A stretch of DNA of 64,000 nt from Gilvimarinus xylanilyticus. Lineage in GTDB: Bacteria > Pseudomonadota > Gammaproteobacteria > Pseudomonadales > Cellvibrionaceae. The notes below the pieces were generated by a model. It saw nothing but the letters and a program-made list of their open reading frames with translations. It ran no database searches and was not told the origin of the DNA. Below are positions 1,776 through 14,425 of the stretch, one piece after another (the stretch's first letter is position 1; each line of letters begins with the position of its first letter). The stretch covers positions 1,915,428 through 1,979,427 of the forward strand of contig NZ_JAMFTH010000001.1 of the NCBI RefSeq assembly GCF_024195295.1, in the 5' to 3' direction. A program made the position numbers and the translations under genes.

Positions 1776-2024
1776 CCGTGAGAGTCTACCAGTTTGCTAG
1801 GCAAAAATCGGCAAGTCCTGCACCTACCGGTGTCCTGTCCGAGAAGTTAGCTCAATTATGTAACCCACGCAAAGATGGCTAGCCCCAGTCCAACCCCGGC
1901 TTTCGGCCATGACATTTGTATGACACGCCCCCGATACGCTTTCAATCACCACAGTGGCACCGTAATATGACACGTGAATTAGCCGCGCCCTGGGCGGCCT
2001 TATAAAACTCAACCGGAGCCCGGC
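1776..2024. promoter_or_regulatory. Divergent intergenic region recQ / GAK-like operon
   Basis: This 249-base spacer must carry promoters for both directions. ATGACA occurs three times on the plus strand between about 1908 and 1973. A GGAG ribosome binding site at 2015-2018 lies six bases before the ATG at 2025. No convincing -35/-10 pair was identified. A short open frame on the minus strand here has no family resemblance and was not called. Confidence 0.4.
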
Positions 2025-3656
2025 ATGGTGTTAACCCCGGCCATTACCGACAACCTGCACTTTCTGATCGCCGAGGTCAAAACCCACCTGGGACATTTGC
2101 AGAGCTTTTTTGCCCACGGCACGGTTGCCAACGCCCACCGCTTGCTGGAGCGCAGCGGCCACGCCTACAACCTTAACTTGCGGGTACAGAACGCGTGCAT
2201 GAAGCACATTGCCCTGCAAAGCAATGAGCACTCCATGAGTTACCGCGCCGTGGGCCGCATTGCCAACGAGCTGGAGCGCATTGCCGAACTCGCGCGCGAG
2301 TGTCTGCAACAAATGAACTTTTTGCATACAGGCGCCCGGCTGGACTTAAGCGTTTTCACCCCGCTGCTGGAAAAGGTTGATAAAAGCATCGACTTAATCT
2401 CCCGCGCCCTCAAGGACCGGGACACCCAGCTGGCGTTAAAACTGGGTAAAACCGAGCGCAAACTGGAAAAGTCTTACAAAAAACTCGTCAGCCAGTACAC
2501 CCGCCAACTCAAAAAGAAAAAACATACGGAAGATCTGGTCAGCGGATTGTTTATTGCCCACGCCATTGAACAAATGGGCGATGCTTTGCTCAACATCAGC
2601 GATTCAATTATCTCGGGGCATATGGGCCAGCCCTTGGATTTACAGCGCTACAGTTCGCTGCGCGATACCATTAACAACTGGTTAGAGGAAGACCTGGCCA
2701 CGCAATTGCGCGTAACCCCTCTGGCCGAGACCCGCTCGGGCAGCGGCATCAGCACCATCGACAACCCCAGCGACGAAAAATGGCAGCGATTGGTGTACAA
2801 AGACGGCAGCAAGCGCAAGCTAAAAGAAGAGCTGCAAGGCGTCAACCGCTGGCACGACGTCTATCCAGGCGTCGCCCCGCATATTCACACCTATCAAAAA
2901 CAGGGTGACAATGCCGCCCTGATTATCGAGCACTTAAACGGCGAGACTTTTGAACAACTGGTGATTAACTCACCGCAAAAGCGCCGCAAAAAAGCAATGA
3001 CCTGCTTAAAGAAAACCCTTAACAATATTTGGCAACAAACCTATACCGCCGAATCTCACCCGGCGCATTTTATGGCGCAAACGCTCAAGCGCTTACCCGA
3101 TGTGTACAGCGTGCATCCCCAGTTCAAACAACAGCGCCAATACCTGGGCGCGCACCCCATAGAAAGTTTCGATGCGTTGGTAAAAAAGGCACAAAAAAAA
3201 GAAGAAAAGCTAATCGCGCCTTTCAGTGTTTTTATTCACGGCGATTTCAACGTCGACAATATTATTTATGACCCAGAGGCGGGGAAAATTAACTTTATCG
3301 ACCTGCACCGCTCCTGCCATATGGACTATGTGCAAGACGCCTCGGTATTTATGGTGTCCAATTATCGTTTGCAGGTATTGGACGAGCCAGTGCGCCGCCG
3401 CATTCGCGACCAGGTAGAACAGTTTTACGTCATCGTGCGCGGCTTTGCCGATAAACACAACGATGACACTTTTGAAATTCGCTTAGCTCTGGGGCTGGCG
3501 CGCTCATTTGTCACCTCCACCCGCTTTATTCTGGACCACACCATGGCGACGCGAATGTTTTTAAAAGCTCGCTATCTGCTGGAACAAATTAATCAATTGT
3601 CGCGCAAGCAAATACGCGACTACCGTGTGCCACTCAGGGAGTTGTTTAGTGACTGA
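2025..3656 (+). CDS. PhoU-like / aminoglycoside-phosphotransferase-like kinase fusion, first gene of GAK-like operon
   Basis: This is a two-part cytoplasmic protein of 543 residues. Residues 1 to about 215 are a long, charged alpha-helical segment resembling PhoU/DUF47 bundles. Residues about 240-530 resemble the APH/choline-kinase fold. The Brenner motif HGDFNVDN is at 405-412, where the Asp would be the catalytic base and the Asn a metal ligand. It is followed by the metal-binding Asp of INFIDL. A phosphotransferase activity on an unknown small molecule or protein is inferred. The ATG follows GGAG by six bases, and the stop overlaps the next start by eight bases, so the gene belongs to the operon. 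I do not know a characterised protein with this architecture. Confidence 0.8.
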   Translation: MVLTPAITDNLHFLIAEVKTHLGHLQSFFAHGTVANAHRLLERSGHAYNLNLRVQNACMKHIALQSNEHSMSYRAVGRIANELERIAELARECLQQMNFLHTGARLDLSVFTPLLEKVDKSIDLISRALKDRDTQLALKLGKTERKLEKSYKKLVSQYTRQLKKKKHTEDLVSGLFIAHAIEQMGDALLNISDSIISGHMGQPLDLQRYSSLRDTINNWLEEDLATQLRVTPLAETRSGSGISTIDNPSDEKWQRLVYKDGSKRKLKEELQGVNRWHDVYPGVAPHIHTYQKQGDNAALIIEHLNGETFEQLVINSPQKRRKKAMTCLKKTLNNIWQQTYTAESHPAHFMAQTLKRLPDVYSVHPQFKQQRQYLGAHPIESFDALVKKAQKKEEKLIAPFSVFIHGDFNVDNIIYDPEAGKINFIDLHRSCHMDYVQDASVFMVSNYRLQVLDEPVRRRIRDQVEQFYVIVRGFADKHNDDTFEIRLALGLARSFVTSTRFILDHTMATRMFLKARYLLEQINQLSRKQIRDYRVPLRELFSD

Positions 3657-4542
3657 TTCACGCACGCTAAAAATTGCTGTGGTGGGCCTGCCCGGCAAAT
3701 GGTCCACCGAAGTGCTGGCGGACGCCATTGAGGCGCGCACCGGATTCCGCCTGGTGGTGGATATGCAAGCGGTGACCCTGGATTTAGCCCAACAGCGGCT
3801 GAATTACCGGGACACCAACCTGTGCCAGCTGGACGGTATTGTGGTAAAAAAAATCAGCGCCGAGTACAGCCCTCACACACTCGACAGGCTGGAGCTTTTG
3901 CGGGTCGCCGAAGCGGCGGGAGTTAACGTTTTTAGCCCGGCCGAGAACATTCTGCGTCTTATCGACCGACTCAGTTGTACCGTTACCCTGAGCAACCACA
4001 ATATACCTATGCCCCCCACCATTCTTACCGAGTCTACCCAGCAGGCGTTGGCGGCGGTGGAAGAATACGGCGAAGCGGTGTTTAAACCCCTTTATTCCAC
4101 CAAAGCGCGGGGAATGGAAATAATCAAAGCCGCAGAGGCCGACAAAGAAAACGCCATCGCCCGCTTTGCCGCGCAAAACCCGATGATGTACATTCAACAA
4201 AAGCTGAATTTAAGTGGGCGGGATTTGGGCATGGTGTTTTTAGGCGGCGAATATCTGGGCAGCTACGCCCGCCAAGGGGCGGGAGATAGCTGGAATACCA
4301 CTATTCACAGTGGCGGCAAGTATGCGCCTGCCACCCCAGACGCCGAGATTATTCAGCTGGCCCAACGCGCCCAAAAACCGTTTAACATGGACTTTACCAC
4401 TGTGGATATTGCCGAGACCGACACCGGCCCCGTGGTCTTTGAAGTCTCCGCCTTTGGCGGGTTTCGCGGCGCCAAAGAGGGCATAGGCATTGATGCCGCC
4501 AGCCTCTACACCGACTATGTAATAGGAAAGCTTTATGGGTGA
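3649..4542 (+). CDS. ATP-grasp enzyme, GAK-system type
   Basis: This 297-residue RimK-like ATP-grasp protein probably forms an amide or similar bond from a carboxylate, ATP and an amine. Its substrate is unknown. Visible elements are an N-terminal alpha/beta domain starting LKIAVVGLPGKWS, a nucleotide-binding segment around FKPLYSTKARGMEI, YIQQKLNLSGRDLGM, and a late metal-binding region DIAETDTGPVVFEVSAFGG. I chose the GTG at 3649 over the upstream ATG at 3625 because AGGGAG at 3636-3641 is seven bases before it and it overlaps the preceding stop by eight bases. It sits between two kinase-like genes, as in the GAK gene sets of deltaproteobacteria (named from memory). The precise subfamily needs a profile search. 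Confidence 0.82.
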   Translation: MTDSRTLKIAVVGLPGKWSTEVLADAIEARTGFRLVVDMQAVTLDLAQQRLNYRDTNLCQLDGIVVKKISAEYSPHTLDRLELLRVAEAAGVNVFSPAENILRLIDRLSCTVTLSNHNIPMPPTILTESTQQALAAVEEYGEAVFKPLYSTKARGMEIIKAAEADKENAIARFAAQNPMMYIQQKLNLSGRDLGMVFLGGEYLGSYARQGAGDSWNTTIHSGGKYAPATPDAEIIQLAQRAQKPFNMDFTTVDIAETDTGPVVFEVSAFGGFRGAKEGIGIDAASLYTDYVIGKLYG

Positions 4543-5665
4543 GGCCAAACATCAGCCGCAAGACACAACGCAGGATTTTTTAGGCTGGCTGCAAAACACC
4601 AAGGGTGCCGCCGAGCACTCACTAAGCCTTGCCCTACCCGGCGCCCAGCTACAGGTAAACTGCTCAGACGCCTTCACCGCGAGTACCCTGCGGGCGTATT
4701 TTCAGCCCTGGCTCACGGCACCCAGCGCTTTACCCGCAACCACGGTGACCATTATCGAAAGCCAGCCGGTGGGCCAAGAGTTACCCTGGCTTGACTGGAC
4801 TCGCGAGGCGGGCAAGACAGGCCGGAAAGATACGTTTATTGATGCACCGGGCGTTCGCCTGATTCGCAAATACCGCACTGGCATGGTGTTTTTACAAGCC
4901 CCACGCAATCCCATCGCAATAGGCCCGGCGGCAAAGAATATAAACCAGGTCGTTAACTTTATTAACAATCAAGCCATAAACGCCCTGCAGCAAGACGACT
5001 GGCTGATTGGCCACGCCGCAGCGGCCAGCTATAACCGCCAGGCTATTGCTATTGCCGGGTTCTCCGGGGGCGGAAAATCTACCAGTATGCTGCAGCTGCT
5101 GGAGCACCCGGCGGTTAACTTTGTCAGCAATGACCGAATATTTATCCAGCCCCAGGCGCAACAGCTGATGCTAACGGGAGTGGCCAAAATGCCCCGGGTC
5201 AACCCGGGGACTTTGCTGCACAACCCTCGCTTACTGGCACTGCTAAGTCCCGCACAACAACACCGCTATAAAACGCTCGCACCCGAGCAATTGTGGGAGC
5301 TGGAAGAAAAGCACGACGTTATGATTCCCGCCCTCTACGGTAAAGCGGATAACCCCCGCATAGACAATAGCGCTACCCTGGGTGCGATCATGTTGCTAAA
5401 CTGGAATCGCGCCGAACAATCAGCTTGCCGCATTCAGTCAGTGGATATCGAAGCCCGGCAAGATTTACTCCCCGCGCTGATGAAATCGCCTGGCCCTTTC
5501 TACCAAGACCGCCAGGGTAACTTTCACCCCAACGCCCAGGCGCCTCAACCTTACCTTGAGCGGCTGAAACACACCCAGGTGTATGAAGTCAGCGGTGGTG
5601 TGGATTTTACCGAACTACGGGATTTTTGCTGGCAGCTGTGGGGCATACCCAGGAGCGCACCGTAA
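4535..5665 (+). CDS. HprK-related kinase (type B-like)
   Basis: This 376-residue protein has a P-loop, GFSGGGKST at residues 175-183, followed by a strand/acidic element NFVSNDRIFI. Both resemble the C-terminal kinase domain of HPr kinase/phosphorylase. No HPr or PTS gene is nearby, so HPr is an unlikely substrate. HprK-related kinases of this kind occur with ATP-grasp and amphi-Trp genes in the so-called GAK system, whose biochemical role is unknown to me. The ATG overlaps the upstream stop by eight bases and AGGAAAG lies just before it. The next gene starts inside its stop codon (TAATG). The kinase assignment is from motif and context; the target is not predictable. Confidence 0.83.
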   Translation: MGEAKHQPQDTTQDFLGWLQNTKGAAEHSLSLALPGAQLQVNCSDAFTASTLRAYFQPWLTAPSALPATTVTIIESQPVGQELPWLDWTREAGKTGRKDTFIDAPGVRLIRKYRTGMVFLQAPRNPIAIGPAAKNINQVVNFINNQAINALQQDDWLIGHAAAASYNRQAIAIAGFSGGGKSTSMLQLLEHPAVNFVSNDRIFIQPQAQQLMLTGVAKMPRVNPGTLLHNPRLLALLSPAQQHRYKTLAPEQLWELEEKHDVMIPALYGKADNPRIDNSATLGAIMLLNWNRAEQSACRIQSVDIEARQDLLPALMKSPGPFYQDRQGNFHPNAQAPQPYLERLKHTQVYEVSGGVDFTELRDFCWQLWGIPRSAP

Positions 5666-6339
5666 TGCGCGCTTTTGCCCTGATCCGCCACGGCGACTAC
5701 CGGCAAAAAGCCAATACGCCCAGTGCACACCAGCCCTATCCACTCACCCCCGCCGGAGAAAATCAGGCGGAGGCCTGCGCCGAGCAACTAAACGCTCTGG
5801 CGGCGGAACTGGAACTAAACATAAGCTCCTGCATTCATACCTCCCCCCTGCTGCGCGCCTGGCAAACCGGCGACATTATTCGGCGCCGCTGGGGCGACCC
5901 TAATATTCAGCTGCAGCAAACCCAGGCCTTAAGCGAACGCTGTGTGGGCAGTGTGGCCAACTTAACCATTGCCGAAATAGAACAACTGCTGCGCGCCGAC
6001 CCGCGCTACCCCCGCCCGCCGCTAAACTGGAAAGCCCGCAGTGACTACTGCCTGCCCTTCCCCGGGGCGGAATCCTTAAACCAGGCGGGCAAGCGCGTGG
6101 CCGACTATATTAATCAATTGTGCGAAACAGCCCCGGCCCATAGCCTGACCCCGCTGGTGGGCCACGGTGCGGCCTTTCGCCACGGTGCCTGTGCGCTGGG
6201 CATATTAAGCCCAGAGGATGTTGCCCGCCTCAGCATGTTCCACGCCCAAGCGGTTATCATTGCCCAAACGGACGCCGGTTGGATTCATTTGGCGGGCCAG
6301 TGGAAGCCGCGTCCCTCACCACGGGAGTTTACCGACTGA
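5665..6339 (+). CDS. Histidine phosphatase family protein (SixA/GpmB-like)
   Basis: This 224-residue member of the phosphoglycerate-mutase-like superfamily has the RHG motif at residues 8-10, with His9 as the expected phospho-acceptor. A second conserved histidine lies in LVGHGAAFRHG. These enzymes remove phosphate from small molecules or from phosphohistidine proteins (SixA). Placed between a predicted kinase and a metallophosphoesterase, it may reverse the phosphorylation made by this operon; that is inference. The start at 5665 shares a base with the previous stop and has AGGAG at 5651-5655. An upstream in-frame ATG at 5626 would lie inside the preceding gene and is less likely. Confidence 0.88.
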   Translation: MRAFALIRHGDYRQKANTPSAHQPYPLTPAGENQAEACAEQLNALAAELELNISSCIHTSPLLRAWQTGDIIRRRWGDPNIQLQQTQALSERCVGSVANLTIAEIEQLLRADPRYPRPPLNWKARSDYCLPFPGAESLNQAGKRVADYINQLCETAPAHSLTPLVGHGAAFRHGACALGILSPEDVARLSMFHAQAVIIAQTDAGWIHLAGQWKPRPSPREFTD

Positions 6340-6341
6340 GC

Positions 6342-7691
6342 ATGAAAGCTATACCGTCCAATACGCGCAAAGCTTGCGCCACGCTAAACCGCTACCAAGG
6401 GGAAAAGTGGCTGCCTATGTCATTACCTGACGAATGCCGGCCCTGGCTGGACGAAGGGAAACACGCTTTTCGCCAGCATAAAAAGGGCCGCCGTCGGGCT
6501 CGTCACGCTATTGATCAGCTGGTGTCGCAGTACCCTTGGCGCTGGCCCAAGCGGCGGATCATTTTTATCTCAGACTTGCACGCCGATGCCGATGCCCTGC
6601 TGGCTTCTCTAACCGCCAGTGGCGGGGTAAAGCGAACCGGCAAAGGTGATAAACACTTCAAGCTGACCGCGCGAGGTAAAAAATCCGTTTTCATTTTTGG
6701 CGGCGACTTTTTCGATAAAGGGCCCAGTAATTTGCGCCTGTTGCGAGTGCTAAAGCGTTTAATGGATCAAAAGGCGAAGGTGAAACTCCTGGCGGGCAAC
6801 CACGATGTACGGGTACTGTTTGGCATGCGCACAGCGGGTCAGGCCGCCGACGTAGAAAACGGCCATTTTTTTGTCCGGATGGGCGCCAAAGCCATTCCAC
6901 TTCTCAAAGAAATTCGCGATCAGTACCTGAGCGGCAAGAATGCTCTGGACAAAACCCCCGATACAAAACAGTGTCGTCTGCTGTTATTGCCCCAACAAAC
7001 CTGGTTTGCGGGCTTTAAAGAGACAGCTCAAGTGCGTTTATCACCTCAGGCCTGCGAGCGCGAGCTGGTTAAAATAGAGAAAAAATCGGCCGAGTTTGAA
7101 GACCAGTGCCACAAGGCCGGGTTAACTCTGCGCGAGGTATACGCCAGCGCCCTGCTCTGGAAAAAGTTGTTTCTAAAACCCAAAGGGGAGTTTTACTGGT
7201 TTTACCAGAACCTAAAGCTCGCATTAAAACGCGGCAGTTTTCTGTTTGTTCACGCCGGGCTTGACGACAACCTCGCCACGTTAATCAGTCAAAGTGGCCT
7301 ACGGCCTTTAAACAAAGCCTTTCAAAAACAGCTAAACGGTGCTCCCTTTGACTTTTACTATGGCTCGCTCGCCAACAGCATTCGCACCAAATACCGCGCG
7401 GTCGACCACCCGCTAAGTAAACATGGCGCCCGGCGCGCTCACACCGCGGGCATTCACGCCATTGTGCACGGTCACCGTAATTTGCACCGGGGCCAGCGCT
7501 TGGCGCTGCGCCGCGAACTGCTGCATATTGAATGCGACATTACTCTGGATAAACACTCGCGCCAAAAAGAGTCTTTGCGGGGGTTGGGTGCGGGTGCGAC
7601 GATTATTGACCCTCGGGGTTTTGTCGCCGGGATCAGCACGGACTGGCCGGTTATTAAAGTGTTTCACCCGCAAATGGAATCACAAGCATGA
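6342..7691 (+). CDS. Calcineurin-like (PPP-type) metallophosphoesterase
   Basis: This 449-residue phosphoesterase has the dinuclear metal-binding signature in order: ISDLHAD (D-x-H), FGGDFFDKG (GDxxDxG), LAGNHDVR (GNHD), FVHAG and HGHRN. A longer insert with many Lys/Arg residues separates GNHD from the later histidines. It may hydrolyse a phosphoprotein or phosphoester made by the operon's kinases. The ATG at 6342 begins two bases after the preceding stop. A second in-frame ATG at 6417 with an AGGGGA upstream is an alternative that would shorten the N-terminus by 25 residues without touching the domain. It overlaps the next gene by four bases. Confidence 0.88.
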   Translation: MKAIPSNTRKACATLNRYQGEKWLPMSLPDECRPWLDEGKHAFRQHKKGRRRARHAIDQLVSQYPWRWPKRRIIFISDLHADADALLASLTASGGVKRTGKGDKHFKLTARGKKSVFIFGGDFFDKGPSNLRLLRVLKRLMDQKAKVKLLAGNHDVRVLFGMRTAGQAADVENGHFFVRMGAKAIPLLKEIRDQYLSGKNALDKTPDTKQCRLLLLPQQTWFAGFKETAQVRLSPQACERELVKIEKKSAEFEDQCHKAGLTLREVYASALLWKKLFLKPKGEFYWFYQNLKLALKRGSFLFVHAGLDDNLATLISQSGLRPLNKAFQKQLNGAPFDFYYGSLANSIRTKYRAVDHPLSKHGARRAHTAGIHAIVHGHRNLHRGQRLALRRELLHIECDITLDKHSRQKESLRGLGAGATIIDPRGFVAGISTDWPVIKVFHPQMESQA

Positions 7692-7975
7692 GCCGAGAGA
7701 AGAACAGCTTCCGTCACGAGTCACTGCAAGACACACAATCGATTCGCAACTTACTACAGGCATTAATGGATGGTATAGACGCCGGCGAGCTTTCGTTTAG
7801 CGAAGGCAAGGACACCTTAACGTTAACCCCTCAAGGGTTAATGCAAGTTAAAGTCACCGCCCAACGCGAAGACGCCTACAATCGAGTTAACCTGCGCGTT
7901 AGCTGGCACGAACAGAGCGACACCGACAGCAAGCAAAAAAACTTGAAGATTAACGGCAAAAGTATCCGCAAGTGA
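7688..7975 (+). CDS. Amphi-Trp domain protein, last gene of GAK-like operon
   Basis: This small 95-residue protein has the usual amphi-Trp pattern: an N-terminal strand (NSFRHESLQDTQSIRNLLQALMDGI) and helix, then alternating hydrophobic strands ending in LRVSWHE. That final Trp gives the domain its name. It ends in a basic tail. Such proteins accompany ATP-grasp and HprK-related kinase genes, and one attractive idea is that it is the substrate or carrier they modify. The ATG overlaps the metallophosphoesterase stop (ATGA). The assignment rests on pattern recognition of a short sequence plus context. Confidence 0.7.
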   Translation: MSREKNSFRHESLQDTQSIRNLLQALMDGIDAGELSFSEGKDTLTLTPQGLMQVKVTAQREDAYNRVNLRVSWHEQSDTDSKQKNLKINGKSIRK

Positions 7976-8015: not shown

Positions 8016-8924
8016 TTATTGACCCCATAAATGCCGTATGGCAGTGCGAAAAGACGGCTCGGTAATCTTGCCATGAGTGGTTTGATAGCGTTCGCGCTCA
8101 ACCGATAAACCGCTAAAATCGCGCTCGGCCAGCAAAGCTGCAAACTGACTGACAAACTCGTCGTTTCCCTCGGGCAGCGCGCTGGATAAGAATAGCTTAG
8201 CGTCAAGTTCATCACTTGCAAGATAGCGGTTGTCTAGCAACTGCTGGGTTTCGTGGGGATGCTGATAGAAACTGGCATCAAAGGCGAGAAGGTTATAAAA
8301 AGCAGGGTCTACCACATCGTCCATCAACATCGCTAAACCGCTAAACACGCCGCCAAAAGACGTCCCTAGCAAAGTGCGCTGGCCCGGCTCAACCCGTAAA
8401 CCGGACTCGGCAAAGGGAATCAGCTCGTGCACTAAAAACCGGAAATAATCGCGCGCGCCCGGCAACAAATAGTCAATTCGGCGACGATCTTCCGGCCCTT
8501 CTGCGATGGCCACCACAATGGCCTCTACCCCCTCGTCTTCCAGTAAATAGGGAATACCTGGAAACAGTACCTGACCATCCAGTACATAGATAACGGGGTA
8601 AGTATGCTCAGCGCCCTCATAACCCGGCGGCAGGTAAATATGAATCGGATATTCAATACCGGTAATCGCCGAGGTAAACAGAGCCTCGCGATGCACATTA
8701 CCGCGCAGCAAGCTGTAATTTTCATCGCCGCCGTCAAAGTCTTGAACCGTCGACTCATCCTGCGGATCCAAGGGCGATGCACTGGCCATGGATGAGCTGC
8801 TTGATTCATCCACAGGTGTCGTCGGTGCAGACGAACCCCCAGCGCCCGATGACGACCCACTACCGCCACAGGCGGTCAATAGGAGTATTAGAGTGGTTAC
8901 AAGCCATGGCTGTATGTATTTCAT
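8016..8924 (-). CDS. Lipoprotein esterase, alpha/beta hydrolase (esterase D / enterochelin-esterase-like)
   Basis: This exported lipoprotein has 302 residues. The signal peptide MKYIQPWLVTTLILLLTAC ends in a lipobox (LTAC) and is followed by a Gly/Ser linker. The catalytic domain resembles putative esterase D family hydrolases: PIHIYLPPGYE and YPVIYVLDGQ near the start, a nucleophile elbow GTSFGG, and a C-terminal His in TTHGKI. The substrate is probably an ester of a sugar or siderophore-like compound and cannot be decided. The start at 8924 was chosen over an upstream ATG at 9011 because it begins the signal peptide and has GAGG upstream. It converges with the operon ending at 7975. Confidence 0.85.
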   Translation of the reverse strand: MKYIQPWLVTTLILLLTACGGSGSSSGAGGSSAPTTPVDESSSSSMASASPLDPQDESTVQDFDGGDENYSLLRGNVHREALFTSAITGIEYPIHIYLPPGYEGAEHTYPVIYVLDGQVLFPGIPYLLEDEGVEAIVVAIAEGPEDRRRIDYLLPGARDYFRFLVHELIPFAESGLRVEPGQRTLLGTSFGGVFSGLAMLMDDVVDPAFYNLLAFDASFYQHPHETQQLLDNRYLASDELDAKLFLSSALPEGNDEFVSQFAALLAERDFSGLSVERERYQTTHGKITEPSFRTAIRHLWGQ

Positions 8925-9392
8925 TAATGCCTCAGAGAGTTCAAACACCACCGGATGTGGCACCTTGATTATTCCCAGACCTAACATCGAGCAACTCGCC
9001 TGCTTACGCAAAAAAAATGATTAATGCGCCACATTGGTGCGAAGGCTGTCCCAAGCCATACTCTAAGCCTGCCTTAAAAAATATGATTTATGCGCCAAAA
9101 ATGGGCCGCAGAGGTTCGCGATCAAATCGCAGACCGGTACGAGTCCTTCCTGATTGACTGAAGACGTTTAACTGAAACGCGGAGGGGGGCTCTTAACCCT
9201 GTGATATTCCATCAACCCACTGGAATTACAGTCGAATAGCTCCGATATCTCTAAGCAGAGATTGGTAGGAATAATAAAGCATAAAAAACTGATCGTAAAA
9301 TAACCAATCTGGATAGTTGTCACTCAAAACAACATTATCAGATATAAGACCTTTTGGACTTTAAAGCGAGGACTGACTCGTAGAGACGCAAA
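8925..9392. other. Intergenic region without recognised gene
   Basis: About 470 bases lie upstream of the esterase gene and downstream of the TSP3-repeat gene's terminators. Two similar stretches (ATGATTAATGCGCCA near 9016 and ATGATTTATGCGCCA near 9082) form a short imperfect direct repeat. I see no open frame with a credible start and no RNA gene. The esterase promoter must be in here. Confidence 0.4.
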
Positions 9393-9459
9393 AGCCCCAT
9401 CGCGGGGCTAGAGAAAAAACGGAAAATAACCCAGGGCAGCTCCATCTGCCCTGGGTTAT
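9393..9459 (-). terminator. Tandem Rho-independent terminators of the TSP3-repeat gene
   Basis: Reading the minus strand, a 14-bp perfect stem pairs 9446-9459 with 9426-9439 around a six-base loop, followed by a T-rich stretch. A second hairpin pairs 9404-9409 with 9393-9398 and is followed by TTTT. The first arm begins three bases beyond the stop codon of the gene ending at 9462. Confidence 0.85.
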
Positions 9460-9461
9460 CG

Positions 9462-12400
9462 CTATTGGGCAGCGGGCGCGACACACATACTGTGAACTCG
9501 CAGGCTACTAAGTGCTCCGACTACCGCACCCTTAGAAATCTCTACCCTGTCGAATTCCTGACTGGTAGACATCATCAATAGATGCTGGTCGGGGTTATTA
9601 AACAAGCCCAGCAACTGCAAGCCCAGCAAGCCGCTAGCCCCGCCTGATTCCTGCTCGGAACCGTTGAGGTAAGTGGTTACGGTAACGTTGCTTAGAACGT
9701 CCGCCTCCAGCAATGTGTCTGCAGATGAAACCACTACCCCTACTCGACGATTACCGGGATACGACGTGGCGGTATCCTCCGCCGCCAGATGCACCGCCGC
9801 CGCAACGGCCACAGGTGTGGACATAGTCGCATAGTTATTCAGGTCGCTGTCTTCGATGTTACTGCTGTTGTTTACTCCGCAGCCAACACACGCGAGTCCG
9901 GACACACCAGTGTGCACAGTAATGTTCGGATCAACCATCGGCTCATAGAGCTTGCCAGGTGCGCAGGCAACATTCTCGGTAGCGTCACATACATCCCCGA
10001 TACCGTCGCCATCAATGTCGGATTGATCGGCGTTGGGGGTAGCCGGGCAGTTATCCGAGCCGTTATCAACACCGTCATCATCCAGGTCATTATCGCAGGC
10101 ATCGCCAATACCATCACCGTCGGTATCCAGCTGGGACGGATTGGCCACCAGGGGACAGTTATCGGCATCATCATCGGTGCCGTCGCCATCCTGGTCATCA
10201 TCGCAGGCATCGCCCATACCATCGCTATCCATATCCGCTTGGTCGGGGTTGCTGACCAGTGGACAGTTATCACCACTGTTCATAATGCCGTCGTTATCGC
10301 GGTCATTGTCGCAGACATCCCCCACGCCATCACCGTCAGCATCCGCCTGGTCAGCGTTAGCGATTAGCGGACAGTTATCGGCTGCATCGGCAATACCGTC
10401 GCTATCACTATCGGTAAGGCTGTCACAAGCATCGCCTATACCATCACTGTCGGCATCCGCTTGGTCACTGTTGGCCGTATCGGGGCAGTTATCGGCACCA
10501 TTGTTAACACCGTCACCATCTCGATCACTGTCACAGACATCGCCGAGCGTATCAGCGTCACTATCCAACTGATCGGCGTTGGCAATGGATGGGCAATTAT
10601 CCGAACCATCGTCGATACCATCGCCGTCGCTGTCGGTGTTGGTATCACACGCATCGCCAATACCGTCGGCATCAGTATCCTGCTGATCGTCATTGGGAGC
10701 TTCGGGGCAGTTATCCGCGCCGTTGGCGATTCCGTCACCATCCAGGTCACTGTCGCAGGCATCACCTACGCCATCGCTATCCCAATCGCTTTGATTGGTG
10801 TTGGCGGTGCGGGGGCAGTTATCACTTTCATTGGCGATGGTGTCGCCATCCAGATCACTGTCGCAGGCATCGCCCACGCCATCACCGTCCAAATCATTTT
10901 GGTTGACGTTAGCCTGAGCGGGGCAGTTATCCGCACCATTGTCGATACCGTCATCGTCGCGATCGTTATCACACACATCACCCACGCCATCACCGTCTAA
11001 ATCAGACTGATCGGTATTAGCAATGAGCGGGCAGTTGTCAACATCATCTTGTATACCGTCATTATCGGTATCGGAGTCGTCGACTCCGTCACAGGCATCG
11101 CCTGTGCCGTCATTGTCACTGTCGACTTGGTTTGCGTTAGCAGTTATCGGGCAATTGTCCTGATCGTTGTCAACGCCGTCACCATCGACATCGGAGTCGC
11201 ACACATCGCCAGTGCCATCGCCATCGCGGTCTTGCTGATCAATGTTGGCAATCGCCGGGCAATTATCCTGATCGTCATTGACTCCATCACCGTCGGTATC
11301 TGTGTCGTCCTGGCTGTCGCAGGCGTCACCGGCACCATCACCATCGGAGTCGGCTTGACCGGCGTTGGCAGTTGCAGGGCAATTGTCTGAGCCGTTATCA
11401 ACACCGTCGCCATCGGTATCATTGTCACAGACGTCACCAATGCCGTCGCCGTCACTGTCCTGCTGTGAGGCGTTAGCATTAACCGGACAGTTATCATTTT
11501 CGTCATCGATGCCGTCGCCATCTGTGTCAACCGGATCATCGTTGGGTGTGCTGTCACAGGCATCGCCAATGCCGTCACCGTCACTGTCGGTCTGATTGGG
11601 GTTGGCAATGAAAGGGCAGTTATCCGCAGGGTTATCGGTACCATCCCCGTCGCGATCTGAATCGCAGGCATCACCTATACCATCGCTGTCCTGATCGAGC
11701 TGATCAACATTGGCATTGAGCGGACAGTTGTCTTGCCCATTGGGTATCCCGTCACTGTCCCTGTCGAGGTCACAAACATCCCCGACACCATCACCATCGG
11801 CATCCAGTTGATCGGGGTTGGCATCGGCCGGGCAATTATCTACAGAGTCGTTGACATTGTCGCCATCGTCATCGCTGTCACAGCTGTTTCCCAAACCATC
11901 TGTATCGCTATCAAGCTGTAGCGTATTGGGTGTGAGCGGACAGTTATCACCCGAGTCAGACACCCCGTCATTATCAGCATCGATGTCGCATACATCGCCG
12001 ACCCAATCATTGTCGCTATCGGCTTGTTCGGGGTTACTGTCAAATGGGCAGTTATCAGTACCATCGTCAAAGCCGTCACCATCAGCATCGGCGTTTTGAT
12101 CGCACGCATCGCCTATACCGTCAGAGTCAGCGTCACCTTGGTCAGCGTTATTGTCGCGCGGACAGTTATCCTGCGTATTGTCGATACCATCGTTATCAAT
12201 ATCGGTATCGCACAGATCTCCCGCCGCATCGGAATCCATATCACTCTGCGAGGTGTTAGCCAACGAGGGACAGTTGTCGTTATCATTTTGTACACCGTCG
12301 CCATCACTGTCGCCATCGCAAGCATCACCCACCCGATCGCCGTCGGAGTCCTGTTGATTCACGTTAATCAATAAGGGGCAGTTATCTTCTCCATCGTCAA

Positions 12401-12803
12401 TACCATCGCCGTCATCGTCTTGATCACATGCATCACCGATATTGTTTTGATCGGTATCGCGCTGATTCATGTTGGCAATGGCCGGGCAGTTATCCAAAAT
12501 ATCGTTGACACCATCACCGTCTGAATCGACACCCGTTTCGTTATTACAGGCATCACCCCGACCGTCGTTATCAGAATCGTTCTGATTGGGATTAGCTACG
12601 TCGGGGCAGTTGTCATCTTCATCGACAATTCCATCGTCATCGGAATCACTGGGAATATCTATGGGATCTGGCTCTTCAAAGCCTTGAGAGCTACTGGAGG
12701 AAGACTGATTGCTTGGCGGAGGATTTGAGGTTCCACCCCCACCTCCACCGCAGCCGTTTAGGAATAGACAAATAATGCTTATTAGAATCGCAGACCTAGT
12801 CAT
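9462..12803 (-). CDS. Giant calcium-binding lipoprotein with 24 thrombospondin type 3 repeats
   Basis: This 1113-residue exported lipoprotein has a signal peptide ending in LNGC (Cys18), a Gly run, a short Pro/Ser linker, and then 24 copies of the motif DNCPxxxNxxQxDxDxDGxGDxCD between about residues 50 and 940. Each repeat is an EF-hand-like calcium-binding thrombospondin type 3 unit. The array is very acidic and would be stiffened by calcium, probably forming a rod projecting from the outer membrane. Residues about 943-1113 form an unrecognised C-terminal domain with four cysteines (CAPGKLYEP, CVGCG and a late CVAP). A GAGGGA site precedes the ATG. A role in adhesion or surface display is inferred. 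Confidence 0.92.
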   Translation of the reverse strand: MTRSAILISIICLFLNGCGGGGGGTSNPPPSNQSSSSSSQGFEEPDPIDIPSDSDDDGIVDEDDNCPDVANPNQNDSDNDGRGDACNNETGVDSDGDGVNDILDNCPAIANMNQRDTDQNNIGDACDQDDDGDGIDDGEDNCPLLINVNQQDSDGDRVGDACDGDSDGDGVQNDNDNCPSLANTSQSDMDSDAAGDLCDTDIDNDGIDNTQDNCPRDNNADQGDADSDGIGDACDQNADADGDGFDDGTDNCPFDSNPEQADSDNDWVGDVCDIDADNDGVSDSGDNCPLTPNTLQLDSDTDGLGNSCDSDDDGDNVNDSVDNCPADANPDQLDADGDGVGDVCDLDRDSDGIPNGQDNCPLNANVDQLDQDSDGIGDACDSDRDGDGTDNPADNCPFIANPNQTDSDGDGIGDACDSTPNDDPVDTDGDGIDDENDNCPVNANASQQDSDGDGIGDVCDNDTDGDGVDNGSDNCPATANAGQADSDGDGAGDACDSQDDTDTDGDGVNDDQDNCPAIANIDQQDRDGDGTGDVCDSDVDGDGVDNDQDNCPITANANQVDSDNDGTGDACDGVDDSDTDNDGIQDDVDNCPLIANTDQSDLDGDGVGDVCDNDRDDDGIDNGADNCPAQANVNQNDLDGDGVGDACDSDLDGDTIANESDNCPRTANTNQSDWDSDGVGDACDSDLDGDGIANGADNCPEAPNDDQQDTDADGIGDACDTNTDSDGDGIDDGSDNCPSIANADQLDSDADTLGDVCDSDRDGDGVNNGADNCPDTANSDQADADSDGIGDACDSLTDSDSDGIADAADNCPLIANADQADADGDGVGDVCDNDRDNDGIMNSGDNCPLVSNPDQADMDSDGMGDACDDDQDGDGTDDDADNCPLVANPSQLDTDGDGIGDACDNDLDDDGVDNGSDNCPATPNADQSDIDGDGIGDVCDATENVACAPGKLYEPMVDPNITVHTGVSGLACVGCGVNNSSNIEDSDLNNYATMSTPVAVAAAVHLAAEDTATSYPGNRRVGVVVSSADTLLEADVLSNVTVTTYLNGSEQESGGASGLLGLQLLGLFNNPDQHLLMMSTSQEFDRVEISKGAVVGALSSLRVHSMCVAPAAQ

Positions 12804-13051
12804 ATTTAATCCCTCAAATCATTTTTTCTTCACTAACCACCCGTGAAGCAATAGTAACCACTGATAATTGTGCGGCTGAATTAAGCGACAACACTCATTG
12901 GATTTTAGTAGAGATCTGGAAATTCAAGACAAGAGGGATAGATAAAAAGCGCATTAACAGATAAAAGGCTATAGCCTGAAGGAAAAACAGGAGAAAGTAA
13001 GGGAAGGTTTCGTGGTTTTAATAAGTTTTACGAATATTCAAAAATTACTAA
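12804..13051. other. AT-rich intergenic region upstream of the TSP3-repeat gene
   Basis: This AT-rich stretch holds the promoter of the minus-strand TSP3-repeat gene, whose GAGGGA ribosome binding site lies just above 12803. No gene-like open frame with a credible start and no structured RNA was found. A 73-residue plus-strand frame starting at 13012 is a shadow over the qmcA terminator and end. Confidence 0.4.
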
Positions 13052-13091
13052 ATAAAAAAAAGTCTAAAAACAGACCCGTAAAAGCGGGCCT
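13052..13091 (-). terminator. Rho-independent terminator of the nfeD-qmcA operon
   Basis: On the minus strand, a stem of seven pairs (one G-U) with a six-base loop spans 13072-13091. It is followed by a stretch of mostly T down to 13052. It begins 11 bases past the stop codon of the SPFH gene. Confidence 0.85.
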
Positions 13092-13101
13092 GCTTCACAT
13101 T

Positions 13102-13950
13102 TTATTTACCAAACATACCCTTAAAAGCATTGGCCAAATCGGCGGGGTAAACCACTGTCTTGCTGTTGTCCGAGGTGGACAGCTCACCGATCGATTCAAT
13201 GTATTTCTCACCCAACAGATACATAACGGGTAACTCATCGCCCCCTTTCACCGAGTCGGTCACCAGTTGAATGGATTTTGCCGAAGCATTGGCCAGGACG
13301 ATCTTAGCCTCACCGTCGCGCTTTGAGGCCTCAAGACGGCCGTCGGCTTCCAAAATAGCCGCTTGCTTTTCACCCTCGGCTTTGGTCACTGCGGCGCGAC
13401 GTTGTCGTTCAGCGGCGGCTTGCTCTTCCATGGCCTGCTGCATGGTGGGCGATGGGTTAATATCCTGAATTTCCACGGTCTTTAAAATAATGCCCCAATC
13501 GGCAATATCATCGGAGATGGAAGCTTTGAGCTTCGCTTTAATTTGATCACGCGATGACAGCGCCGAATCCAATGCCATCTCCCCGATAATCGAGCGCAGC
13601 GATGTCTGAATTAAATTTTGAATGGCGATAATATAATTCTCTACGCCGTAAACGGATTTTTCGGGGCTGACAATATTAATGTAAGCCACGGCGTTAGCAA
13701 TGATGACCGCATTGTCCTGGGTAATCACATCCTGAGACGGAATATCCAGTACGATATCTTTGGTGGTGACTTTATAAGCCACAGTGTCGAAAAACGGAAT
13801 AATAAGATTTAAGCCAGGGGTTAAGGTGGTGTGGTAGCGGCCTAAACGCTGCACCACATCTTTGCGCCCCTGGGGCACAATACGAACCCCGCGGGTGATA
13901 ACAACAAGCGCTAAGACGACAATTGCGCCGACAGTAATTAATGCATCCAT
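13102..13950 (-). CDS. qmcA: SPFH/stomatin-like membrane protein (QmcA/paraslipin)
   Basis: This 282-residue protein has an N-terminal transmembrane segment (MDALITVGAIVVLALVVI). An SPFH (prohibitin-homology) domain follows, recognisable from VPQGRKDVVQRLGRYHTTLTPGLN and the later SLRSIIGEMALDSALSSRD. A long alanine/glutamate-rich coiled coil runs from about residue 165 to 230. Such proteins form large oligomers on detergent-resistant membrane domains, and QmcA partners an NfeD-type protein. That partner gene lies ten bases upstream in the same direction, giving the standard nfeD-qmcA pair. A terminator follows closely. Confidence 0.95.
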   Translation of the reverse strand: MDALITVGAIVVLALVVITRGVRIVPQGRKDVVQRLGRYHTTLTPGLNLIIPFFDTVAYKVTTKDIVLDIPSQDVITQDNAVIIANAVAYINIVSPEKSVYGVENYIIAIQNLIQTSLRSIIGEMALDSALSSRDQIKAKLKASISDDIADWGIILKTVEIQDINPSPTMQQAMEEQAAAERQRRAAVTKAEGEKQAAILEADGRLEASKRDGEAKIVLANASAKSIQLVTDSVKGGDELPVMYLLGEKYIESIGELSTSDNSKTVVYPADLANAFKGMFGK

Positions 13951-13960
13951 GATTTTATCC

Positions 13961-14425
13961 TTATACTTTAGGTGTAACGATCAGATCGTTGCCGGAGAAG
14001 TCCATCACCATAACGCGATCGCCCGGCTGCAATTCGCTGGTACAAATAAAGCGCCACTCGTCCTCGCCCAGCACCGGGGCTGAAAAACGCAAAGTGCCAC
14101 GCTGATTAGAGGCAGTGTAATTGAGCACAGTGCCAATTTGGCCCACGGCTTTTTCCATAGCCATGCCCGACAGGGTTTTGTCTTTCATGCGCGGGGCGAC
14201 CCATTTAAACCAGGCCAGCAGAGAGAGCAGGGACAGAATGCCCCAAAGAAGTAATTGTACCGCCAGAGAGAGCGGCACCAGCCAGGTTACCAGCCCCACC
14301 ACAATGGCACTGACACCCAACCAGAGCATAAAGAAACTGGGTAAGAGTATTTCTAACGCCGCCAGGGCGATACCCAGCACCATCCAGATCCAGGGCGCGA
14401 GCCCGGTTTGCAGCCATTCACCCAT
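13961..14425 (-). CDS. NfeD-like membrane protein (short form)
   Basis: This 154-residue protein has three or four hydrophobic helices in residues 8-75, followed by a soluble OB-fold-like domain (VGQIGTVLNYTASNQRGTLRFSAPVLG, ending LQPGDRVMVMDFSGNDLIVTPKV). This is the short NfeD class without the serine protease domain, known to work with stomatin-like proteins. It is transcribed just ahead of qmcA. The ATG at 14425 has AAGGAG seven bases upstream, but that site lies inside a strong hairpin (separate entry), suggesting translational control. Confidence 0.93.
   Translation of the reverse strand: MGEWLQTGLAPWIWMVLGIALAALEILLPSFFMLWLGVSAIVVGLVTWLVPLSLAVQLLLWGILSLLSLLAWFKWVAPRMKDKTLSGMAMEKAVGQIGTVLNYTASNQRGTLRFSAPVLGEDEWRFICTSELQPGDRVMVMDFSGNDLIVTPKV

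Follow-up and report, generated by a model that had tools for sequence, protein, structure and literature searches.

Six genes on the forward strand of Gilvimarinus xylanilyticus (Cellvibrionaceae), within a stretch of 64,000 nucleotides of contig NZ_JAMFTH010000001.1 (the window), form an operon at positions 2025-7975 that we tentatively view as a phosphate-starvation cassette of the Pho regulon, belonging to the GAK system, in which an HprK-like kinase and a RimK-like ligase would modify a small amphi-Trp protein. We favour this reading because of a PhoB box preceding the operon, the PhoU domain of its first gene product, the HprK/PEPCK fold of its kinase, a motif and a tail in its amphi-Trp protein and the gene content of another genome, G416. 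Although GAK has a name and occurs in several classes of at least two phyla, the set is uncharacterised; the operon looks intact and counts as an ordinary member. The features discussed are collected in Table 1.

Table 1. Features of the operon and of its upstream region (positions in the window)
Feature	Positions	Strand	Remarks
PhoB-box core TGTCAT-N5-TGTCAT, TGTCATACAAATGTCAT	1909..1925	-	exact; about 100 bases before gene 1
Short conserved blocks CTTTCAATC (1939-1947) and CGTAATAT (1961-1968)	1939..1968	+	footprint alignment; largely conserved in three species
Gene 1, PhoU domain fused to APH-type kinase	2025..3656	+	Pfam PhoU 2.7e-14, APH 6.8e-10
HGDFNVDN motif in gene 1 kinase domain	3237-3260	+	kept in relatives
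Gene 2, GAK ATP-grasp enzyme, RimK/LysX-like	3649..4542	+	GTG start; TIGR04356 1.5e-137; PDB profile matches
Gene 3, HprK-related kinase B	4535..5665	+	TIGR04355 1.6e-96
Walker A GFSGGGKS of HprK-like kinase	5057-5080	+	kept in relatives
Gene 4, histidine phosphatase, branch 1	5665..6339	+	Pfam His_Phos_1 2.5e-24
Gene 5, metallophosphoesterase	6342..7691	+	Pfam Metallophos 9.5e-11
Gene 6, amphi-Trp protein	7688..7975	+	TIGR04354 6.6e-17
Amphi-Trp F8, H10 and S12	7709-7711, 7715-7717, 7721-7723	+	alignment
Amphi-Trp C-terminal tail	within 7688..7975	+	predicted structure; low model confidence

Consecutive genes overlap by 8 bases (PhoU-APH fusion and ATP-grasp enzyme), 8 (ATP-grasp enzyme and HprK-like kinase), 1 (HprK-like kinase and histidine phosphatase) and 4 (metallophosphoesterase and amphi-Trp protein), and 2 bases separate the histidine phosphatase from the metallophosphoesterase. 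These spacings had been reported in an earlier note made from the sequence alone, and they are exact with the starts of Table 1; Pfam and NCBIfam profiles also agree with all six of its gene assignments. The relation to GAK which it suggested is borne out by a profile search, where three proteins exceed the curated NCBIfam cut-offs: the ATP-grasp enzyme (grasp_GAK, 457.4 bits for a cut-off of 300), the HprK-like kinase (HprK_rel_B, 323.5 for 200) and the small protein (amphi-Trp, 61.6 for 31). The PhoU domain of gene 1 passes its Pfam cut-off (53.8 bits, 23.5 required), and the full-length PhoU model gives 47 bits, below the 130.25 required. The metallophosphoesterase is weakly nearest to the symmetrical Ap4A hydrolase ApaH, with a model E-value of 4.1e-5 that is far under the cut-off; ApaH is also its top PDB match, but at E 0.17.

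Set against the GAK system as named in TIGR04354, TIGR04355, TIGR04356 and TIGR04357, the operon thus shares three proteins and, with two plasmid records, its gene order, but it differs in its companions. CofD, a member named for the system and not known to be required, which the earlier note had reported as absent nearby, has no match in the whole genome at E 0.001. The SixA-NUDIX fusion, present in 37 of 52 relatives' loci, was not found in the genome either, and no stand-alone NUDIX gene lies beside the operon (NUDIX genes were not searched genome-wide). The same note saw no HPr gene nearby: indeed the sole HPr match of the genome sits on another contig, other genes of the phosphotransferase system not having been searched. 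Two candidate assignments were discarded along the way, PF11042 as the amphi-Trp family (it is DUF2750, which is unrelated) and a phage or viral origin (no relative was found in the viral collection).

The earlier note had named a survey of gene neighbourhoods as a possible source of refutation; the survey found the gene set conserved across phyla. The ATP-grasp profile also matches RimK-like paralogs (in 100 of 120 genomes), so that above-cut-off matches alone were counted and a later survey went through the HprK profile. Counted in this way, with the present genome included, the ATP-grasp enzyme occurs in 4 of 120 genomes of the family, three of them in the genus, and HprK_rel_B in 12 of 369 genomes of the class. 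The named relatives, which are the best 80 of at least 495 confirmed matches, include Gammaproteobacteria, among them Gilvimarinus agarilyticus (Cellvibrionaceae), Alphaproteobacteria, Zetaproteobacteria such as Mariprofundus, and Planctomycetes such as Rhodopirellula. The GAK genes are clustered in these other genomes too, with about 32-92% protein identity and mostly the same order, hence their grouping in the window is not due to chance. Writing P for the PhoU-kinase, G for the ATP-grasp enzyme, K for the HprK-like kinase, S for the SixA-NUDIX fusion, H for the histidine phosphatase, M for the metallophosphoesterase and A for amphi-Trp, the commonest orders are P-G-K-S-H-M-A (38/96) and P-G-K-H-M-A (17/96), among 96 loci (95 that were fetched, plus the window itself), with five places being counted twice. 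Fifty-two of the 80 named loci have room on both sides; found through G, and with presence scored anywhere in the locus, all 52 hold P, G and K, 51 hold A, 48 hold H, 48 hold M and 37 hold S, all six genes being present in 47. HprK-like matches appear in six plasmid records, in five of which the match covers 80% of the query or more (Tritonibacter 3, Pseudooceanicola 1, Qingshengfaniella 1), and the two records that were opened display the identical six-gene order under GAK family names. In the window as well as in the congener G036 the operon stands between recQ and an esterase gene (for the window, the pair was identified with Pfam). In another congener, G054, which has no GAK match above cut-off, recQ and the esterase gene are 360 bases apart, with no frame of 100 codons between them. 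The whole block being present or absent between the same neighbours, the six genes appear to come and go together.

What ties the operon to phosphate in its own genus is the PhoB-box core, which has a single match in the 64 kb, even when one mismatch is allowed, and which precedes the operon in all three GAK-bearing Gilvimarinus genomes of the 120-genome family sample (G000, the present one, G036 and G004). These genomes have 9, 8 and 7 core sites respectively, against 2, 1 and 1 for a reversed control. In each, one site precedes a gene for a PstS-type binding protein (Pfam PBP_like_2, 3e-27 or better, the PstS label being given by reading), and in G036 another precedes a PhoD-like phosphatase gene (7e-95). 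Further sites precede porin and TonB-receptor genes, one precedes an NAD-kinase-like gene of opposite direction, and several are intragenic or have no evident phosphate gene. In the present genome the nine sites (L239, L242, L245, L248, L251, L254, L257, L259, L260) include the one at the GAK operon and others at genes of the PstS type, of porins, of TonB receptors and of the sulfatase family; the rest are unclear. Nothing else in the leader is as well conserved in the three species as the box and the two blocks downstream of it, and the blocks may possibly be the promoter of the operon, although a scan with the sigma-70 consensus did not call them. Over all loci, an upstream score of at least 12 was reached by 9 of 82 distinct operon upstreams and by 9 of 475 gene upstreams (p 3.4e-4), as well as by 5 of 1000 random stretches; five duplicate places had been removed from the operon count, and for L062-L076 the count took no account of where the upstream NUDIX gene begins.

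The enzymes themselves look intact in so far as the signatures examined are conserved over relatives: the kinase domain of gene 1 keeps HGDFN and DLHRS, the HprK-like protein keeps G-x-SGGGKST, the histidine phosphatase RH and GHGA, and the metallophosphoesterase GGD, DKGP and GNHD. This makes plausible the write/erase module imagined in the earlier note, where kinases and ligase modify and phosphatases reverse. To call it complete, however, was too strong, since relatives usually add SixA-NUDIX and a stand-alone NUDIX protein, and often CofD. The predicted structure of the HprK-like kinase (predicted local distance difference test, pLDDT, 93.8) retrieves with Foldseek a PEPCK (2pc9, 1.3e-8) and an HprK (3tqf, 2.9e-6), which gives the kinase an HprK/PEPCK fold. 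The ATP-grasp profile, when compared with the PDB, matches RimK and lysine-biosynthesis ligases in alignments that span most of the chain, and a PGKWS stretch is invariant near its N-terminus. Its score with the curated RimK model is 105.6 bits, below the cut-off of 143.4, and it is also below the cut-offs for MptN and LysX. The stretch FEVSAFGG occurs in 95 of 96 members. It had itself served, with one other pattern, to find 80 of these loci, but a separate alignment has it in all 13 rows, nine of which come from loci reached via the HprK profile. The serine of this stretch (4447-4449) aligns with an asparagine of RimK that is a metal ligand there. For the related Asp1 kinase, metal binding by the equivalent asparagine is supported by PMC9765450.

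The amphi-Trp protein bears marks that belong to GAK. Across an alignment of 50 GAK members F8 and S12 never vary, and 47 of the 50 have the motif F-x-H-x-S. The class sample has an amphi-Trp match in 33 of 369 genomes. The high-scoring kind (13 rows, window included, from the 12 HprK_rel_B genomes and G416) displays F-x-H-x-S throughout, and the motif is in none of the 17 readable sequences from the 20 other genomes, two of these 17 having been read without a start codon. Fifteen of the 17 also end a few residues past the last strand, without the GAK tail. Motif and tail thus mark the GAK kind, and F-x-[HY]-x-S together with the tail would be the best candidate sites of modification. The suggestion of the earlier note that amphi-Trp is modified gains indirect support in this way, the modification itself being proposed from sequence. 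The predicted structure (pLDDT 84.8) has one helix, four strands and a low-confidence tail. A C-terminal pattern L-[KRST..]-[VIL] found in 41 of 49 tails (one truncated row dropped) is weak, because it was picked by eye and turns up in the PhoU-APH control too (55/95). Finally, G416 keeps, at 8827-11580 of locus L236, amphi-Trp, PhoU-kinase and ATP-grasp genes together as a minimal form of the system; its genome has no HprK_rel_B, and the histidine phosphatase and metallophosphoesterase of the GAK set are absent within the 18 kb read. The ligase is thereby tied to amphi-Trp.

The scheme that we tentatively prefer would run as follows. When phosphate is low, PhoB would help switch the operon on; the PhoU domain of gene 1 would sense phosphate status or contact phosphate transport, and the adjoining kinase domain would phosphorylate a small molecule or a protein. 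The HprK-like enzyme would phosphorylate S12 of amphi-Trp, as HPr kinase does HPr, and the RimK-like ATP-grasp enzyme would attach to amphi-Trp an amino acid or some comparable group, most likely at the flexible C-terminal tail. Removing the phosphorylation would fall to the histidine phosphatase and the metallophosphoesterase, helped in relatives by SixA-NUDIX; that SixA dephosphorylates an HPr-like protein (PMC7948535) we count in favour of this scheme. Gene content, conservation, motifs, the pattern of PhoB boxes and the GAK-specific motif and tail of amphi-Trp are observed, whereas control by PhoB, all of the substrates and the way the response runs are what we infer.

Several observations weigh against this scheme. 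The box reads opposite to the operon, contrary to simple activation; in our judgement 10 of 21 other sites are oriented with the next gene, one is against it (L243) and 10 are ambiguous or intragenic, and a literature search on reversed Pho boxes found no paper. Once Gilvimarinus is set aside, the upstream enrichment becomes weak (6/79 against 9/475, p 0.012). Amphi-Trp is a presumed substrate, and a fold search with its model gave nothing usable, no PDB entry matching at E 0.001, so that its likeness to HPr is one of size and motif only. Tyrosine replaces the histidine of the motif in 3 of 50 members. G416 has F-x-H-x-S without an HprK-like kinase, hence the kinase is not the sole reason for the serine. 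The ligase, with a serine where RimK has an asparagine, may catalyse a different reaction.

A serious rival to the scheme is that the substrate is polyphosphate-like or pyrophosphorylated. The module would then make and break a phosphate-rich small molecule, be it polyphosphate, a dinucleoside polyphosphate or a pyrophosphorylated cyclitol, the kinases building it, NUDIX, ApaH-like, SixA-like and histidine-phosphatase enzymes breaking it, and amphi-Trp acting as a binding partner. We hold this to be possible, if somewhat unlikely. It draws on the flanks of the 80 named loci (815 kb; 47 groups at 80% ATP-grasp identity), compared with 800 kb in 40 control stretches from eight GAK-bearing genomes, using models trained on the same flanks, some contigs being short. 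Stand-alone NUDIX genes are found at 55 loci (30 groups), CHAD at 12 (7 groups), Na/Pi transporters at 12 (4 groups), ParA at 10 (6 groups), CYTH at 4 (4 groups) and DUF47 at 2 (2 groups), none of these occurring in the control, while families taken as negative controls are about equal (ABC 11 against 7, GGDEF 8 against 6, LysR 7 against 5). CNNM neighbours, at 11 loci but in 3 groups and in two control stretches, were not counted as evidence. CHAD is present in 54 of 62 GAK-bearing genomes searched, mostly as a single copy, some genomes appearing under two handles. Polyphosphate granules carry CHAD proteins (PMC10892726); the nearest solved relatives of the NUDIX half of SixA-NUDIX include diphosphoinositol-polyphosphate and Ap4A hydrolases; and a PPK2 polyphosphate kinase gene lies some 6 kb from the rearranged operon of L066. 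Yet Pit transporters are not enriched (2 loci, 2 groups, against 1), and the control is lowered for CHAD, 15 of its 40 stretches coming from three genomes that lack it. Furthermore, the six genes are kept in G000, G036 and G004, where genome searches found neither CHAD nor SixA-NUDIX, and in the present genome without CofD: the phosphate theme holds for the system, but CHAD and SixA-NUDIX are dispensable in the genus. A PDB search with the ATP-grasp profile, moreover, taken as far as E 10, gave 15 distinct sequences, with entries of the amide-ligase type and no inositol-phosphate kinase (PPIP5K or ITPK), so that an inositol-kinase identity is unsupported by the profile, in a comparison of sequence only.

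In the same flanks, a ParA-like ATPase gene accompanies CYTH-CHAD at L078, L079, L083, L096, L115, L135, L145, L155 and others; parA and CHAD have been described with ppk in Acidithiobacillus (PMC10892726). A gene of the endonuclease/exonuclease/phosphatase family lies near the operon at L071, L087, L108 and L115.

It is rather improbable that the operon instead makes a modified coenzyme or cell-envelope compound for times of scarce phosphate, CofD-like, RimK-like and kinase enzymes acting one after another, in the manner of the side chains of F420 and methanopterin. Genes of the CofD_rel_GAK type do lie in the flanks of 34 of the 80 loci (20 groups, none in the control), and the ATP-grasp enzyme has MptN as its second-best NCBIfam profile, at 148 bits, below the MptN cut-off of 350. 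But CofD is missing from the present genome and from 46 of the 80 flanks (some on short contigs), and two or three phosphatases with a PhoU domain would, in our judgement, be unusual in a linear pathway. Still less probable is that the PhoB box is a chance match, or belongs to recQ, and that the operon escapes phosphate control: the orientation suits recQ in two of three genomes and 37 of 100 shuffles of the window contain a match when one mismatch is allowed, but the actual box has none and falls inside the one relevant intergenic stretch, recurs before the operon in G004, whose recQ lies about 27 kb away from it, and has no equal upstream of recQ in six loci lacking the adjacent operon (scores of 9, 9, 9, 10, 10 and 11 of 14, against 12 for the operon).

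Comparison with named systems helps place the scheme that we prefer. With HPr kinase, HPr and SixA-NPr it shares a kinase of HprK/PEPCK fold, an acceptor-like protein of about 90 residues and, in relatives, a SixA-like phosphatase; it differs in that amphi-Trp is not HPr by profile, has a model without a solved-structure match, and in that the HPr gene of the genome is elsewhere. From the amide ligases RimK, LysX and MptN, with which it aligns over most of the chain, the ATP-grasp enzyme is set apart by sub-threshold scores, by its serine and by the PGKWS stretch. The eukaryotic inositol-pyrophosphate circuit (PPIP5K, DIPP) has in common an ATP-grasp fold related to RimK (PMC9765450), a histidine phosphatase, a link to phosphate and, in GAK relatives, a DIPP-like NUDIX protein; the ATP-grasp enzyme has no sequence match to PPIP5K or ITPK, and the likeness is one of parts lists, inositol enzymes not having been searched. 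That GAK should be a prokaryotic phosphate-starvation signalling device akin to that circuit, assembled from a RimK-like ATP-grasp enzyme, a histidine phosphatase, a DIPP-like NUDIX protein, a phosphate sensor and transporters, yet run through a small-protein carrier doubly modified by a serine phosphate and a ligated C-terminal group, is an idea to which we give very little weight. A doubly modified small protein, if true, would be a carrier of a new type.

The phosphate link, seen in the PhoB box and in the Na/Pi and CHAD neighbours of relatives, goes beyond the earlier note, and so do the flank enrichment, the GAK-specific amphi-Trp motif and the absence of the whole block from one congener. 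They point to a probable physiological trigger, widen the membership and offer an acceptor that can be tested: with phosphate limitation, S12 and tail of amphi-Trp, and a cultivable genus, function can be addressed directly. A literature search with GAK names and accessions found no paper on the system, subscription papers being mostly outside its scope; for the terms 'GAK system' and 'amphi-Trp' none was found, the nearest match sharing only 'XXXCH domain'.

Some minor observations deserve mention. GAK genes also occur in L078, under the title Halobacteria archaeon; their ATP-grasp product is 71% identical to that of the window, and the contig is perhaps a mis-binned proteobacterial one. In L085, from a tubeworm endosymbiont, the PhoU-kinase and SixA-NUDIX frames are each split in two (8366-10005 and 12008-14014); three related symbiont records have each of them unbroken. 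Beside the operon, at 9462-12803 of the window, a gene codes for a large protein with 23 thrombospondin type-3 repeat stretches (Pfam), and a similar gene occupies the same place in G036 and G054.

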